Positions 23,861-30,427 of a stretch of DNA of 36,111 nucleotides are shown piece after piece (within the stretch, counting starts at the first letter, position 1; every line of letters starts with the position of its first letter). The notes under the pieces were generated by a model. The model was not told the origin of the DNA and searched no databases. It saw only the letters and a program-made list of their open reading frames with translations. The DNA comes from Meiothermus cerbereus DSM 11376. Its GTDB lineage: Bacteria > Deinococcota > Deinococci > Deinococcales > Thermaceae. The DNA is taken from NCBI RefSeq assembly GCF_000620065.1, contig NZ_JHVI01000031.1:1-36111 (forward strand). The letters run 5' to 3'. Made by a program: the position numbers and the translations under genes.

Positions 23861-24916
23861 TCAGCTTTGCGTCAGCGGCGCAGGCAACAGGAAGGCCCCT
23901 TCGTGGACACACTGTAAAAATACTCTGACCACATCGGGGTCGAATTGAAAACCCGCCTGGCGCTTAATTTCTGCAACAGCCTGTGGCACAGGCCAGGCCT
24001 GTTTGTACGGGCGTCTACACACCAGGGCGTCAAAGACATCTACTACTGCTACAATTCGGGCCTCCAGGGGAATGGCTTCGCCTTTGAGGCCGTCTGGGTA
24101 GCCTCCACCATCGAAGTGTTCGTGGTGCGAGCGCGCAATGCGGCTGGCCATTTGTAAGTAAACCGACTTACCCCCCTCAAGCAGCGAAGCACCCACCACA
24201 GTATGGCTCTTCATGAACTCATACTCTTCTGGGGTAAGCCGGGAAGTTTTGCGGAGTATGGCGTCCGGTATTGCAATCTTACCTATGTCGTGCAGGGGAG
24301 CCGCCTGACGAAGCGCTTCCACCACAGCGGACTCCAGGCCCAGGCCCTGCGCAATTTTGCAGGCGTTTTCGGCAACCCTGTGCACGTGCTCACCCGTATC
24401 GTCATCGCGAAATTCGGCGGCGTGCGCCAGGCGTCGAAGCACATCCAGATGCGCTTCGTGCAATTCCTGGGTACGGGCCCGCACGGCTGCCTCCAGGCGC
24501 GAATTCTCATCTTTCAGCTGCAGGTGCAGGTAACGGGTCTGGAGCAAGCGACGCACCCGTAAGGCAACCTCGAGTAAGTCAAAGGGTTTTTGCAAAAAAT
24601 CTTCAGCCCCAAGCTTCAGGGCTCGGCGCTTGGCTTCGGCTGTGGGGTCGGCGGTAAGCACAAGCACCGGCAGGTATTCACCGTCCACCTGGCGCTCCTG
24701 CAGGTACTTGAGTATTTCAAAGCCATTCCGTTTGGGCATGTGCAAATCCAGCAGAATCACGTCGGGCCGAAATCTGCTCAAACACTCTTCAAAGCGGGTT
24801 GGATCCGTGGTGGCGTAAATGCGGGAAAACCCCACACGCTCGAGGGTTCTTTGCAACAAAGCCACGTTTGTCGGCTCATCATCCACAATAAAAACGGTCA
24901 TGTCTTCTAATTGCAT
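23861..24916 (-). CDS. response regulator with HD-GYP c-di-GMP phosphodiesterase domain
   Basis: 351 residues from ATG 24916 (AAGGA 7 nt upstream; ATG 24931 and 24901 also in frame). Receiver domain residues 7-125: acidic pair D12/D13, phospho-acceptor D57 in VILLDLHMP, T88 and K110 in FLQKPF. A coiled linker spans ~130-160. HD-GYP domain ~160-345 with LHDIGK (HD at 209-210), then HHEHFDGGGYPDGLKG and DVFDALVCRRPYK, so the catalytic metal ligands are intact. It should hydrolyse c-di-GMP when phosphorylated. No histidine kinase is adjacent. It is divergent from the protease/Cas7-like operon that ends in a diguanylate cyclase, hinting at opposing control of the same signal. Confidence 0.92.
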   Translation of the reverse strand: MQLEDMTVFIVDDEPTNVALLQRTLERVGFSRIYATTDPTRFEECLSRFRPDVILLDLHMPKRNGFEILKYLQERQVDGEYLPVLVLTADPTAEAKRRALKLGAEDFLQKPFDLLEVALRVRRLLQTRYLHLQLKDENSRLEAAVRARTQELHEAHLDVLRRLAHAAEFRDDDTGEHVHRVAENACKIAQGLGLESAVVEALRQAAPLHDIGKIAIPDAILRKTSRLTPEEYEFMKSHTVVGASLLEGGKSVYLQMASRIARSHHEHFDGGGYPDGLKGEAIPLEARIVAVVDVFDALVCRRPYKQAWPVPQAVAEIKRQAGFQFDPDVVRVFLQCVHEGAFLLPAPLTQS

Positions 24917-25358
24917 GGTTCCATCCTTCATGGCCAAAACAAATCCCCCGACACTTACCTTAGTGCCTGCAAAAAAAACGTGGGCAAATTCAACCAAGGG
25001 GGCCATTGCTTATGGGTAATTTGTGGAGTATACCAGGCTTGGCAAAATAATGTGGGTTATTTGCACTTTAGGAAGCCCGTTTGTAGATAAGTGCGTGCTG
25101 GGCGAGTTTTTTGGGATTCGCGGACAGCCCCTATGGCTTGGCTGCGGTGGGGCACGTTGGTGCAAATATAGTGTGGCACGGGGTTTATGGCCCCCGCTTC
25201 AAGTGTGTGCTATCTGAACCAAACCGCCCGACCCGGCCTGCCTAAGCTCATGACAGGTGGTCAGCTTTGCAAACGCTTGCACACTCAAACCAGACCAAGT
25301 CCCACCCCATACGGGTGTCAAGGTGCAGGGGTACAGGGTTGACCGAGGCGGCTATGAA
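24917..25358. promoter_or_regulatory. long divergent intergenic region with promoter candidates
   Basis: 564 nt separate the HD-GYP and protease genes. On the plus strand TTGCTT-17 nt-TATACC (25006-25034) and TTGCAC-17 nt-TAGATA (25061-25089) are reasonable promoters; the second would give a leader of about 385 nt. Small stems CACCC/GGGTG (25303-25317) and GTCAA/TTGAC (25317-25343) precede the larger structured element. No convincing protein gene is seen: the frame at 25267-25665 is open but lacks an RBS and any recognisable motif. Confidence 0.4.
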
Positions 25359-25446
25359 GACTGTTCTGCGGGATATTGAGGACAGTCGGAGCCTGAGAAG
25401 CAGTCCGGCTAAAGCGAAAGGGCTTTATTCCGCCGGACTCAATATC
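25359..25446 (+). promoter_or_regulatory. structured leader RNA with pseudoknot
   Basis: Three mutually compatible helices are visible. Hairpin 1 pairs 25359-25366 with 25380-25387 (8 bp, one G-U). Hairpin 2 pairs 25402-25409 with 25432-25439 (AGTCCGGC/GCCGGACT) and continues with 25410-25415/25422-25427 (TAAAGC/GCTTTA, GAAAGG loop), with TTCC bulged. The loop of hairpin 1 (GATATTG, 25372-25378) is complementary to CAATATC (25440-25446) directly after hairpin 2: a 7-bp pseudoknot. The protease RBS follows 22 nt later. I do not recognise a known riboswitch class. Confidence 0.6.
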
Positions 25447-25467
25447 TCGTTCGAAAAGCTAAGTTCG

Positions 25468-25483
25468 GAGGTGATGATCCGTG
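25468..25483 (+). promoter_or_regulatory. strong ribosome binding site fixing a GTG start
   Basis: GGAGGTGAT (25468-25476) is a near-complete complement of the 16S 3' end and lies about 4-5 nt before GTG 25481, fixing the protease start despite the rare codon. It sits just downstream of the pseudoknot, so the fold could gate access. Confidence 0.8.
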
Positions 25484-27262
25484 ATTCCCAATCTGGGCAC
25501 CAAGGGAAACGGGGAGCCAGTGGTGCAACCGGCCGAACGCTATGGCGTTACTGCTGCGCACTGGATAGCCCCTATACAACAGAAGCTCCTTGGATTAGCA
25601 CTGATGGTTCTGGCTGCAATAACCTTAACCGCGTGCTCATCGAATCAAAGTCAGGTAGGCATTGAAGTTACGCCTCAAGCCGTACCTTATGTGGGGGGGC
25701 AGGTAAATCTTAGCTGGAATATAGAGGGGGCCCAGTTTTATACGGTTCGTAGCGAGCCCCCGCTGCCCGACCTGCCCCTTATCACCACCAGCTCTTCTGT
25801 CAGCCTCCAGCTCGAGGGCAACCAGAGCCCCGACCCTAAAAGTTATCGGGTAATTATTGAGGCCAATACCCCCAAAGGCCTCGAGCGCCTCATCGTCAAC
25901 CTGCGCGTAGAGGGCAGGTCGGTCTGCTCCAGCAGCATCAAATCGCAAGCGCAGCTTCCTGCGGCCAAATCGGTGCTAAAAGCGACAGGGTTGGGCCACT
26001 TTGACGTACCGCACGTGGCAGGACGCCTGATCGTCTATCACAAGAGCGGCTTAAGCCTGCAAAGCCAAATCGCCAGCGCCCAAAGCCTGGGGGCCCAGTG
26101 GGTGCGGGATCTGGGGGGTGGCTGGAACCTGTACCGCACCCAGCCCGGCCAAGAGGCTAAGGTGGCCCAAAGTCTGTATCAGCACGGGCTGGGCCAGTAC
26201 GTGCAGCCCGAGTACCTCTACCAGCCCGACAGCCTGGCCGTGCCCCCCCATAACCGCAGCTACCAGCTAGAACAAGCGCCCCTGTTTAGGCTTATGAACC
26301 TTGAGCAGGCCTGGCAAAAGCTAGATGAAGTGAAACCGGGGTGCGATGCACCGGTAGTCGCCGTGGCCGACACCGGGTTTTATACCCAGCGGGGCGACCT
26401 GGCGCCCAATTTGACTCCCCAAAATAGCTGGTTGGACGTAGTGGGAGACGAGATCGAAAACCCCCGCCCCGTCCGAGGTGCAGTAGAACCAAAACCCGGC
26501 GCCGGCGCCAACCACGGAACCCAGGTGGCGAGCATCATCGCGGCCACCACCAACAACGGCTCGGCCCTGGCTGGCACTGCCTATAACCTGCTGCGCGTAC
26601 TGCCTATCAAGGTTTTCGATGCCAAGCGGCAGGCCGGTACGCTGCAAGTGGCCCAGGCGCTGGAGTACGCCGCTGGGGCAACCCAAATCGCCGGGCAGGT
26701 TTTCATCAACCCCACCCCGGCTCAGGTTGTCAACTTATCGCTTTCCATCTCCAAACCGGGTTTCCGCGACCCCTACCTCGAGCAGGTACTCGAGCAGGTT
26801 ACCCAGCAGGGTGTGGTGGTGGTGGCCTCGAGCGGCAACGCAGACCTGCCCTCGGTGGGCTACCCCGCATCCTCGCCTTACGTCATCGCAGTAGGCGCCA
26901 CCGACATCAACCAAGCCCGGGCAAAATGGTTTAGCGGCTATGCATCCAACTATGGCGCCGAGCTCGAGTTTGTTGCCCCTGGCAGCGGTGTACCAGTAGC
27001 CTACGGGCCCAGCAAGGACGACTACGCCCTGGCCTATGGCACTTCCGCCTCTGCACCTTTCATCAGCAGCGCCATCGGCCTGTATCTCCTACAGCAGCAG
27101 CAGCTTGGCAAATCTCACACAGACCGGCTGACCCAGGTACGCAACTGCTTGAAAAGCGCTGGGCAAAACGCTTCGGCCTGGAACAGCCAAACCGGCTACG
27201 GCCTCGTGGACGTGGCCAAGGTGGTGGATCCCCACAACACCGCCTGTTTTCCTAAGGAGTAG
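25481..27262 (+). CDS. lipoprotein subtilisin-like serine protease (S8 family)
   Basis: 593 residues from GTG 25481. A ~33-residue polar N-region precedes a hydrophobic helix (LLGLALMVLAAIT) and the lipobox LTAC (Cys52), predicting an acylated protein on the outer face of the membrane. Residues ~60-150 form a beta-rich domain, ~165-260 a propeptide-like region, and ~285-580 the S8 catalytic domain: D297 in AVADTGF, H345 in NHGTQVAS, S522 in YGTSASAPF, with VVASSGN for the oxyanion Asn. The triad is complete. The Cas7-like gene starts 2 nt after its stop, with its RBS overlapping this gene's end. Confidence 0.93.
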   Translation: MIPNLGTKGNGEPVVQPAERYGVTAAHWIAPIQQKLLGLALMVLAAITLTACSSNQSQVGIEVTPQAVPYVGGQVNLSWNIEGAQFYTVRSEPPLPDLPLITTSSSVSLQLEGNQSPDPKSYRVIIEANTPKGLERLIVNLRVEGRSVCSSSIKSQAQLPAAKSVLKATGLGHFDVPHVAGRLIVYHKSGLSLQSQIASAQSLGAQWVRDLGGGWNLYRTQPGQEAKVAQSLYQHGLGQYVQPEYLYQPDSLAVPPHNRSYQLEQAPLFRLMNLEQAWQKLDEVKPGCDAPVVAVADTGFYTQRGDLAPNLTPQNSWLDVVGDEIENPRPVRGAVEPKPGAGANHGTQVASIIAATTNNGSALAGTAYNLLRVLPIKVFDAKRQAGTLQVAQALEYAAGATQIAGQVFINPTPAQVVNLSLSISKPGFRDPYLEQVLEQVTQQGVVVVASSGNADLPSVGYPASSPYVIAVGATDINQARAKWFSGYASNYGAELEFVAPGSGVPVAYGPSKDDYALAYGTSASAPFISSAIGLYLLQQQQLGKSHTDRLTQVRNCLKSAGQNASAWNSQTGYGLVDVAKVVDPHNTACFPKE

Positions 27263-27264
27263 CC

Positions 27265-27984
27265 ATGATCTGCAACCCAGATCTACATCACAAGTTTGTG
27301 CTGCTGTTTGAGATCAAAAACGCCAGCCCGCTCGACCTGTCCTTTCTGAGCAGCCCCCACCAGCTCGCCCAGGATGTGCGCTATGGGCTGGTGTTCGATG
27401 AGGCGATCAGGGAAGCGCTAAACCTGTACTTTGAGAAAGAGTCGTTGCCCGTGCTCAGAAAGTGGCCGGTCATTGAGCAAGCCTACGCCGCAAAGGGGGC
27501 TAAGGCCCTGTGTGCAGGGTTTTACAACCTGCGGATGTTTGGCCTCGTCCACCCCGCAGGGCACACCCTGATTCCGGGCCCAGTTCGCTTTTCGCTGGCC
27601 CGCTCGGTTGATCCTATCTTCCCGCTCACCTCGGGCCGCAATGCAGCCTATGGGCTTTACCGCATGCACGGATACTACACCCCCACCGCCGGAAAGGAGA
27701 ACGGTGTAAGCGCATCGGATTTGGAACAGCTCTGGAAAGGACTATCCAGCGTGTTTGCACCAGATACCTCGAGCTGGCCTATCGAAACATCCATGCGGGG
27801 CTTGTGGGTCTTTACCCACCAGGCCAAACGAGCCGAGCCTATCCCCTCCAGGGAATTGTTCAACCTGGTGCAAACCCCAGCCCTAAAATCTCAGGCCCAG
27901 AAATTTGAAGACTACTCCATCCAGGCTCCTCCCCCGGGCAGGCTCGAGGCCATGCCCAGCGTCTTTCTAACCCAGTTTGCGTGA
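27265..27984 (+). CDS. orphan Cas7 (Csd2, type I-C)-like protein
   Basis: 239 residues. Blocks follow Csd2/Cas7 order: FVLLFEIKNASP (10-22, cf. FVxLFDVxxGNPNGDP), GLVFDEAIREAL (41-52, cf. GLVTDVCLKRKI), FYNLRMFGLV (86-95, cf. xYDVRTFGAV), GPVRFSLARSVDPIFPL (105-121, cf. GPVQxxFARSxDPxxP), YGLYRMHGYYTP (129-140), SDLEQLWKGL (151-160), SMRGLWVFTH (176-185) and SRELFNLV (195-202). The family binds crRNA along the Cascade backbone. Differences: about 45 residues shorter, NPNGD replaced by ASPLD, and the basic KRKIR replaced. No cas3, cas5, cas8, cas1/2 or array is present. It is tightly coupled to the protease upstream and a small membrane protein downstream. Family assignment is from memory of the motifs; function unknown. 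Confidence 0.8.
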   Translation: MICNPDLHHKFVLLFEIKNASPLDLSFLSSPHQLAQDVRYGLVFDEAIREALNLYFEKESLPVLRKWPVIEQAYAAKGAKALCAGFYNLRMFGLVHPAGHTLIPGPVRFSLARSVDPIFPLTSGRNAAYGLYRMHGYYTPTAGKENGVSASDLEQLWKGLSSVFAPDTSSWPIETSMRGLWVFTHQAKRAEPIPSRELFNLVQTPALKSQAQKFEDYSIQAPPPGRLEAMPSVFLTQFA

Positions 27985-28156: not shown

Positions 28157-30427
28157 ATGAAACCTGGAGATCTTCCCAACACCAAACCCCTCTCTGGGAA
28201 AACCCGGCCCTATCAAGCCAAAAAGCCGCACAGGGGCCTGCTGGCTGTATCGCTGCTGGCAGCAGTGGCGGCGGTTCTGCTGCTCTGGCACCACTCCTTC
28301 CTGGCTTCGCCTCTGTGGATCTGGCTGGTGCTGGGCAGTACAGCTTTCCTCTCGTACAGGAGCAGGCAGGTTTGGCAGCAGCTGCTTTGGGGCCAGAAGG
28401 AAACCTCCAATCAGCTGGCCCTGCTGGTCAGCGCCTTGCAGGTGCTGTCGACCCTTCCCAGTCGCGATCAGGTGCTCAGGGCCATGCCCGAATTGCTCGA
28501 GCAGCAAGCAGAGCGCATCACGGTATGGCTGCCGCAAATAGACCGATTGCAGTTGTATTATTCCAGCACCCCGTCGGCAGCCAGTACCCTCGAGCAGAGC
28601 GTAGCTCAGCGGGCCTATGTGCAGGGTTCCATCGTGTATGAGGAGGAAACCGAAGGGTTTTCGCAGATGCCAAACACCCCCCGCAGGCCTCGCTGGCTAC
28701 AGCGGGTGCTTGCCAGAATTACGCCCGGCCCAGGTAGACAAACCCCACCAGACCGGCAACCCCCCAGCCGTTGTATGGCCATTCCCCTCTTCGAGCACGA
28801 TGAGGTTGCTGCTGTGGTATGCCTGAAGCGCCGCCGCGATTTTCAGCCTCGAGAACAGGTCTGCTTCGATCGCTTCGCCAAAACCGTAAGCAACCGCCTT
28901 ACCTGGATTGCCGAGCAAGCAGAAGCCCGGCTGCTTCATCAGCTTTCCATTTCACTGGCCGCTGCTGGTTCGGTAAAGGAGCTTGCCGAGCGGGCACTGG
29001 TGCTGCTGGCCTCGGGCCTAAACGCACCACACGGCGTCATCTTGCAACAACAGGGCCAGCAGTTACGCACTTTAGCTCAATACCAGGCAGTGCAAACCCC
29101 GGGTGCAGCCTGGAGTCCCCCCACATCCGCCAGCGAGCGCCTGTTCTGGAAGGTTTACCATACCGGGCAAGCTGTTTTTGTGGACAACCTGGCCCAGGAG
29201 GGCAGCCCCCTAGCCGACCATCACGGGAGCCTCGCAGTTCATCCCATTACCTTGCCCAACATGCCTCGAGCCCGCGTACTGCTGGGCCTGGCCCACCCGC
29301 AACCCCACCGATGGAAACCTTCTGAACAAAACCTGCTGAACCTGGCCTGCCGCTCTATTAGCCTGGCGCTGGAGGGCGCCCTGGCCCGGCAACGCCTGGA
29401 AACCGTGCTCGATCTATCGCACCAGGCCGCCCTGGATAACTCAGAGAGCCTCTACCAGCAGGTGTTGAATTCGGCAGTGGAGCTCATTCCAGGTGCAGAA
29501 GCAGGCAGTCTGCTCGTGCGCCAGGGGGAGCGCTTCCACTTTAAGGCTGCGGTGGGCTACGACCTCGAGCACCTCAAAGACATCACCTTTACTGAGCAGA
29601 ACCACCAGCAGTGGTACGGAGCCAACCTCGAGGGGTGGTATAGGGGCGAACCGCGCATCCTATCCAATGAATGGGCATCCATCGAGGCACACAGTGTTAA
29701 AAGCTCCTCGGCTGAGGCAGACCTGGCCGCTTATACCAGGCGTATCCAGTCCAACCTGGCCATTCCGGTGCTTTATCAAGGGCATGTGCTGGCCCTGCTC
29801 AATCTGGACAGCTTCCACGACACACGGGCCTTCGGCCAGGATTCTTTAGAGGTCGCTCGCTTTTTTGTTACCCCTGTGGCAACGCTGCTTCACCAGGCGC
29901 ACACCCGTCAAAGCCTGGCAGAAGCAGCCCTGACCGATTCCTTGACGGGCCTTGCCAACCGTCGGGCCTTTAATGCCTTTTTCGACGAGGAATTGGCTTT
30001 GGCAAAGCGGTATCGGCATCCATTTTCGCTGCTGCTGATGGACCTGCAAGGCTTCAAAGCCATAAATGACCAGCTAGGGCATGCCCTGGGCGACGAAGCC
30101 CTGGTAAGGGTGGCCGAGGCCCTAAAAAGGACATGCCGCGAATCGGACGGCTTATTCCGCTTTGGCGGGGATGAGTTTGCCGCCGTATTGCCTTATGCCA
30201 CAGAAGAACAAGCCCTTCATGCTGCCCAACGCTACGCCAGGGCCATCCAGGAAATCGGCATCAGAGGCTGTACCCTGGGGGTAAACATTGGCGTGGCCAC
30301 TTACCCCCTGGATGGCTCCGACAAGGAAACTTTGCTGCGGATGGCAGATGAGCGCATGTATGCAGCAAAAGAGCGACGCCTCAGCGTTTTGCAGGAGCCC
30401 GGCTTTACGCTCGACAGGCCAGGTTGA
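28157..30427 (+). CDS. membrane GAF-GAF-GAF-GGDEF diguanylate cyclase
   Basis: 756 residues. Two membrane helices lie at about 28-60 (GLLAVSLLAAVAAVLLLW, then LWIWLVLGSTAFL). Three GAF-like domains follow at roughly 80-255, 260-415 and 420-590, then a GGDEF domain from ~595 (DSLTGLANRRAFN). The active-site FGGDEF is at 669-674 and the inhibitory-site RxxD (RESD, 661-664) is five residues before it, so the enzyme should make c-di-GMP and be product-inhibited. ATG has AAGGGG 7 nt upstream. It is the fourth gene of the protease/Cas7-like operon and functionally opposite to the divergent HD-GYP regulator. Confidence 0.92.
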   Translation: MKPGDLPNTKPLSGKTRPYQAKKPHRGLLAVSLLAAVAAVLLLWHHSFLASPLWIWLVLGSTAFLSYRSRQVWQQLLWGQKETSNQLALLVSALQVLSTLPSRDQVLRAMPELLEQQAERITVWLPQIDRLQLYYSSTPSAASTLEQSVAQRAYVQGSIVYEEETEGFSQMPNTPRRPRWLQRVLARITPGPGRQTPPDRQPPSRCMAIPLFEHDEVAAVVCLKRRRDFQPREQVCFDRFAKTVSNRLTWIAEQAEARLLHQLSISLAAAGSVKELAERALVLLASGLNAPHGVILQQQGQQLRTLAQYQAVQTPGAAWSPPTSASERLFWKVYHTGQAVFVDNLAQEGSPLADHHGSLAVHPITLPNMPRARVLLGLAHPQPHRWKPSEQNLLNLACRSISLALEGALARQRLETVLDLSHQAALDNSESLYQQVLNSAVELIPGAEAGSLLVRQGERFHFKAAVGYDLEHLKDITFTEQNHQQWYGANLEGWYRGEPRILSNEWASIEAHSVKSSSAEADLAAYTRRIQSNLAIPVLYQGHVLALLNLDSFHDTRAFGQDSLEVARFFVTPVATLLHQAHTRQSLAEAALTDSLTGLANRRAFNAFFDEELALAKRYRHPFSLLLMDLQGFKAINDQLGHALGDEALVRVAEALKRTCRESDGLFRFGGDEFAAVLPYATEEQALHAAQRYARAIQEIGIRGCTLGVNIGVATYPLDGSDKETLLRMADERMYAAKERRLSVLQEPGFTLDRPG

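Follow-up and report, generated by a model that had tools for sequence, protein, structure and literature searches.

We consider it likely that the leader of a protease operon in Meiothermus cerbereus is a diverged tandem riboswitch, in which a canonical c-di-GMP-II aptamer (aptamer 2) would sense the ligand and, by directly occluding its own ribosome-binding site, turn off the translation of an operon that feeds back on c-di-GMP. The pseudoknotted element immediately upstream would be the former first aptamer, now a ligand-independent module. All of the evidence in this analysis is computational. The window is the whole stretch of DNA analysed (36,111 nucleotides), from a genome (G000) of 3.0 Mb in 54 contigs, and its relevant features are collected in Table 1.

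Table 1. Leader elements and neighbouring genes, with positions in the window
Feature	Position	Strand	Basis
Response regulator with HD-GYP, candidate c-di-GMP phosphodiesterase, divergent	23861-25006	-	PF13487, PF00072
Putative diverged first aptamer core: P2, P3, 3' segment GCAGUCC (canonical GCAACC)	25347-25406	+	model R1
P2 5' strand GGC of the element, pairing with GCC 25391-25393	25350-25352	+	invariant in 5 variants
P3 hairpin (first hairpin) of the element, 8 bp, loop 25367-25379	25359-25366/25380-25387	+	minimum-energy fold, covariation
Pseudoknot 5' strand, P3 loop GATATTGA (GAUAUUGA)	25372-25379	+	covariation, shuffles
Hairpin B, inserted	25402-25409/25432-25439 (8 bp) around 25410-25415/25422-25427 (6 bp)	+	minimum-energy fold
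Pseudoknot 3' strand, tail TCAATATC (UCAAUAUC), spacer "anti-L3" element	25439-25446	+	covariation, shuffles
Aptamer 2, canonical c-di-GMP-II	25458-25543	+	RF01786, 64 bits, E 3.3e-12, full length 1-84
GGAGG, P1/A13/P2 nucleotides of aptamer 2 doubling as putative Shine-Dalgarno	25467-25471	+	RF01786 alignment
Putative GTG start codon, in P3 5' strand of aptamer 2	25481-25483	+	orthologue frame comparison
Candidate anti-aptamer strand GCGUUACUG, complementary to aptamer-2 core CAGUGGUGC (25518-25526)	25545-25553	+	tentative
S8 (subtilisin-family) protease lipoprotein, operon gene 1	25481-27262	+	PF00082, E 1.2e-34; lipobox Cys codon 52
Cas7-like protein, operon gene 2	27265-27984	+	PF05107, 80 bits
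GAF-GAF-GGDEF diguanylate cyclase, RxxD and GGDEF motifs, operon gene 3	28157-30427	+	PF00990, E 2.5e-41

A pseudoknotted element and a canonical aptamer in one leader

Both hairpins of the upstream element belong to the minimum-energy fold of 25359-25480 (z = -2.5; 2 of 200 shuffles were equally stable). The pairing of the first loop with the tail is unlikely to be due to chance, because 2000 dinucleotide-shuffled versions of that downstream stretch contained no helix of equal quality; U25439 is common to hairpin B and the pseudoknot, which therefore measures 7-8 bp. Across seven Meiothermus leaders 54 of 56 pseudoknot pairs are standard, and 5 of its 8 base pairs have changed on both sides; P3 retains 40 of 40 pairs in five leaders, with two-sided changes at 2 of 8 pairs. 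A stem is present at the position of hairpin B in all five full-length variants. These covariation counts come from a hand alignment of the helices, and the covariance model described below was restricted to the core, because full-length MAFFT alignment misplaced the 3' part of G021 and G008. The two hairpins and loop-to-tail pseudoknot proposed in the earlier note were thus recovered at 25359-25446 by folding, shuffling and covariation; given the two-sided changes, the Meiothermus leaders do not show the lack of covariation on which that note would have given the structure up. Its broader claim of a structured leader RNA adjoining a translation start is borne out as well, and this RNA is under selection. 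The element lies where it was placed, from 25359 onward, except that its true 5' limit is some 12 nt further upstream, at 25347. An HDV-like topology, raised by the order of the helices (P1-P2-P4), was rejected: HDV P3 is absent and there is no Rfam ribozyme match.

Aptamer 2 begins 12 nt downstream of the pseudoknotted element, and its score of 64 bits exceeds the Rfam gathering score of 53.5. The c-di-GMP contacts in 3Q3Z are A13, A14, U37, G39, U60, A61 and C68-A74 (review PMC7288161). In the RF01786 alignment, aptamer 2 retains the mapped contacts A13, U37, G39, A61 and C68-G73. The contacts were mapped with the 3Q3Z sequence, which has the expected base at each of the 13 listed positions. 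The leader thus holds a genuine c-di-GMP-II aptamer, and c-di-GMP, one of the ligands that the note had suggested, would be the relevant signal. The accompanying statement that the leader matches no riboswitch class does not hold: RF01786 matches within it, and the element itself appears to be a diverged copy of the same class, therefore not a member of an unknown one.

The near-perfect ribosome-binding site reported 22 nt from the element corresponds to GGAGG and GTG, and both lie within the aptamer. GGAGG is present in nearly all of the Thermaceae second aptamers listed (G027 has GGGGG); among 40 aptamers taken from two other families, not one has this motif with a start codon at such spacing. 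The frame from the GTG at 25481 crosses aptamer 2 and continues into the lipoprotein signal peptide, with the lipobox Cys at codon 52 from this GTG in all eight Meiothermus-group sequences; a GTG GTG pair at 25520-25525 provides alternative in-aptamer start candidates. Because four orthologues (L015-L018) have no in-frame ATG, GTG or TTG between aptamer 2 and the lipobox Cys, the protease start most likely lies inside aptamer 2, either at 25481 or within this GTG pair. In other orthologues, later start candidates sit just about 3-12 codons ahead of this Cys. Codon changes 3' of aptamer 2 show no strong coding bias and are uninformative.

In five second aptamers of Thermus (L003, L007, L010, L014 and L020), an in-aptamer GTG opens a frame of ~43-52 codons that appears to overrun the start of the downstream gene and could couple the translation of a short leader peptide to that of the main gene. 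The window genome contains a second c-di-GMP-II match (G000:C4:112895-112979; L002 1501-1585), at 45 bits below the cut-off, which lies ahead of a gene that has a Shine-Dalgarno sequence of its own and codes for a small secreted protein; similar singlets occur in several Thermus.

Descent and remodelling of the upstream element

A covariance model of the core (R1), built solely from the five full-length Meiothermus elements, was searched against 111 genomes of the class; it recovered all five training loci, together with another 26 loci at E <= 0.01. Twenty-three of these 26 are RF01786 aptamers (best score 40 bits, best E 4e-7, in other genera). The matches shown span the full model length with P2 aligned to P2 and P3 to P3, and the P2 of the element accordingly coincides in position with that of canonical aptamers. 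The remaining three (G015, G019:C156 and G074; 24.6-26.3 bits) lie in coding sequence, are not matched by any Rfam family and resemble chance hits. The element and the c-di-GMP-II class share common descent. RF01786 itself finds no second aptamer in the window even at E <= 10, which counts against a tandem reading, and matches the element weakly in the sister genome G019 (19.9 bits, positions 13-68); in neither genome does it score the element above the gathering score.

The position of the element is that of canonical aptamer 1 in its relatives. Two canonical aptamers, with starts about 150-160 nt apart, are found in M. granaticius (G005), the Thermaceae MAG G011, Calidithermus (G003 and G004) and several Thermus; in the window and six close relatives RF01786 scores the second aptamer only. 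Judged from these sequence comparisons, the element at 25347-25446 is a former first c-di-GMP-II aptamer that has been remodelled. A protease orthologue (E < 1e-140) occurs in exactly 13 of 50 family genomes, and the RNA is present in all 13. In G016 and G017 only the loop and tail strands of the element are left, as a plain hairpin, P3 and P2 having been lost, and in G001 and G002 the element is absent, with the protease and aptamer 2 retained. A single family thus offers a series from canonical tandem through rewired first aptamer and truncated hairpin to absence, which shows that a riboswitch aptamer is able to lose its ligand contacts yet retain its fold.

What was lost includes the pocket. 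All five full-length variants have C in place of A13 (GGAGGC to GGCGGC), U in place of A61 (GCCAGU to GCCUGN, or GCCUAA in G012) and an altered A70 (CAACCGG to CAGUCCGG, with CAGUCC, or to CGUCC), and because these contacts have changed throughout, the element is unlikely to bind c-di-GMP. P2 and P3 are retained, P1 is absent, and the variable hairpin B (25402-25439) occupies the place of the 3' half of a canonical aptamer. The canonical pseudoknot of the P3 loop with GUGGYGCAA is also absent, the loop pairing with the spacer instead. The spacer of canonical Thermus tandems complements the aptamer-1 loop over 11-12 bp, a match equalled in 0-4 of 2000 shuffles; some other Deinococci show 10-13 bp of complementarity between spacer and first-aptamer loop. 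Such complementarity is not significant by shuffling in canonical Meiothermus and Calidithermus tandems, which counts against our reading of the element as an aptamer fixed in one of two formerly alternative pairings. In the Thermus genome G027 (L020 1408-1484), the first aptamer has been rewired separately, its loop UGGACCCCC pairing with GGGGGUCCG directly after P2; it is without the AACCG strand and scores 28.5 bits with RF01786. This separate case suggests that rewiring of the first aptamer happened more than once.

Proposed control of the operon and its alternatives

The protease operon is separated by a 475-nt gap from the divergent HD-GYP response regulator gene, whose product carries an HHEHFDGGGYP motif and scores 175 bits with a NosR-family c-di-GMP phosphodiesterase model, below the cut-off of 400. 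Candidates for the making, breaking and sensing of c-di-GMP, in the form of the cyclase operon, the HD-GYP regulator and the riboswitch, are therefore found at one place. A LacI-family-like palindrome (25249-25270, TGCAAACGCTTGCA) lies in the interval that separates the HD-GYP gene from the leader, and four close relatives have a related GGTGGTCAGC..TGC.ACGCTTG stretch upstream. As no promoter-like sequence was recognised, the presence of the element on the transcript is an assumption. The Cas7-like annotation of the second operon gene is fair, though the protein falls under the NCBIfam cut-offs (76 bits with the Csd2 model, below its cut-off). Seven Meiothermus-group genomes have this gene, at 37-69% identity to the copy in the window, and two lack it; a lone Cas7 relative in a c-di-GMP operon, with no other cas genes adjoining, is odd.

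We infer OFF polarity, direct occlusion and feedback for this leader, as follows. On binding c-di-GMP, aptamer 2 would fold: its GG would become part of P1 and its GGU part of P2, A13 would contact the ligand, and P3 would take up the start codon. Because the putative Shine-Dalgarno GGAGG and GTG start are part of aptamer 2, its folding would itself shut ribosomes out, and translation would stop. At low c-di-GMP, aptamer 2 would open, perhaps aided by complementary strands in the early codons; the candidate anti-aptamer strand in the coding region varies among orthologues, which counts against it. The switch would control the lipoprotein protease, the Cas7-like protein and the diguanylate cyclase, and because the operon encodes a GGDEF protein, the outcome would be a negative feedback loop on c-di-GMP. 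The P3 loop of the upstream element would be permanently paired with a spacer strand that is an alternative partner in canonical tandems, and the element is probably a ligand-independent structural module ahead of the ribosome-loading site.

Three Thermus relatives have a strand, TTGCGCCAC, with which the aptamer core GTGGCGCAA pairs; this strand runs on into CCACCTCC, opposite the Shine-Dalgarno sequence GGAGGTGG. The downstream gene there has its own Shine-Dalgarno sequence, in a hairpin whose other arm follows the core-complementary strand, and this predicted arrangement is a standard translational OFF layout. Pseudoknot-free thermodynamic folding gave no clean open/closed switch, which counts against the proposed mechanism; in the predicted ligand-free folds the Shine-Dalgarno bases are largely paired at 37 C and less so at 55 C. 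The characterised c-di-GMP-II switches of Clostridioides difficile are ON switches (PMC11477304), which also counts against the OFF reading, and Thermus spacers carry alternative hairpins adjoining a U-run, as might be expected if these leaders acted on transcription rather than on ribosome access. The U-run is not shared by Calidithermus. Since the window leader has no intrinsic terminator or terminator-like site, and the putative Shine-Dalgarno sequence and start lie within an aptamer whose Thermus relatives display an OFF layout, we regard an ON switch or transcriptional action through spacer hairpins as unlikely.

Other explanations concern the element itself. Its truncation in G016 and G017, its absence from G001 and G002, where protease and aptamer 2 remain, and the loss of its pocket residues would suit a decaying relic with no present role; the retention of 40 of 40 pairs in P3 and 54 of 56 in the pseudoknot, seven two-sided changes and a loop-tail pairing that persists even in the truncated forms make such decay an unlikely description. 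Somewhat less probable still is that the element evolved from c-di-GMP-II into an aptamer of changed specificity, for another cyclic dinucleotide, pGpG or a nucleotide, and that it and aptamer 2 together form a two-input gate. In favour of this, five genomes share an unchanged P2, UGCGGG and most of the junction sequence, the pseudoknot has been maintained, and there is precedent in glycine tandem riboswitches, some variants of which have mutated cores and do not accept glycine (PMC9481103). However, the ligand-contacting 3' strand has been disrupted in different ways (GCAGUCC vs GCGUCC) and is separated by a variable hairpin from the pseudoknot strand, P1 is gone, and the loop-tail helix that is all G016 and G017 keep would not preserve the pocket needed. 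We consider equally improbable the gate as a whole, in which a first aptamer rebuilt into a pseudoknot senses an input other than c-di-GMP and the c-di-GMP aptamer 2 is a translated ribosome-entry site of the protease/Cas7-like/diguanylate cyclase operon. The Cas7-like product, which the earlier note had offered as a regulator, is unsupported in that role, since Calidithermus G003 and G004 have the canonical tandem and the protease without this gene. The gene is present in all seven checked Meiothermus-group genomes with a full-length variant or an intact tandem and missing in G016 and G017, where the element is truncated, but this coincidence amounts to a single event and descent from an aptamer already explains the element; autoregulation through a protein-binding site is accordingly very doubtful.

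Relation to known riboswitches

Our preferred reading, a sensing aptamer 2 behind a remodelled first aptamer, departs from known systems in several respects, and our search of the open-access literature turned up no work on these leaders in either Meiothermus or Thermus. Within the c-di-GMP-II class (RF01786), aptamer 2 is a full member and the element is a descendant of that fold, visible in P2, P3 and the junctions, but the element is without P1, the canonical pseudoknot and the contacts A13, A61 and A70, and the putative Shine-Dalgarno sequence and start codon lie within aptamer 2. Tandem c-di-GMP-II riboswitches are known (59 doublets and 9 triplets, mostly in Paraclostridium; PMC9481103), and canonical tandems occur in Thermus, Calidithermus, M. 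granaticius and other Deinococci. These likewise place two aptamers of one class in series ahead of one operon, whereas in the lineage of the window the first appears pocket-less and rewired to the spacer. Glycine tandem variants provide a parallel in which one aptamer has lost its usual ligand contacts (PMC9481103), although they belong to another class with another ligand, and a change of ligand is only hypothetical here.

Direct occlusion is known for SAM-II/V, SAM-III, SAM-SAH and preQ1-I/II, a list in which c-di-GMP-II does not figure (review PMC10907184). As in those riboswitches, the putative ribosome-binding site, here the GGAGG of aptamer 2, is part of the ligand-folded aptamer; the difference is that this aptamer also takes in the GTG start and some 20 codons, so that it would be translated. 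This arrangement predicts that the bases of an aptamer that are most conserved can double as a Shine-Dalgarno and start region and that a riboswitch can be partly translated. Relative to all of these systems, what appears to be new is the combination of a pocket-less, rewired tandem partner with a sensing aptamer within which translation of the gene would begin.
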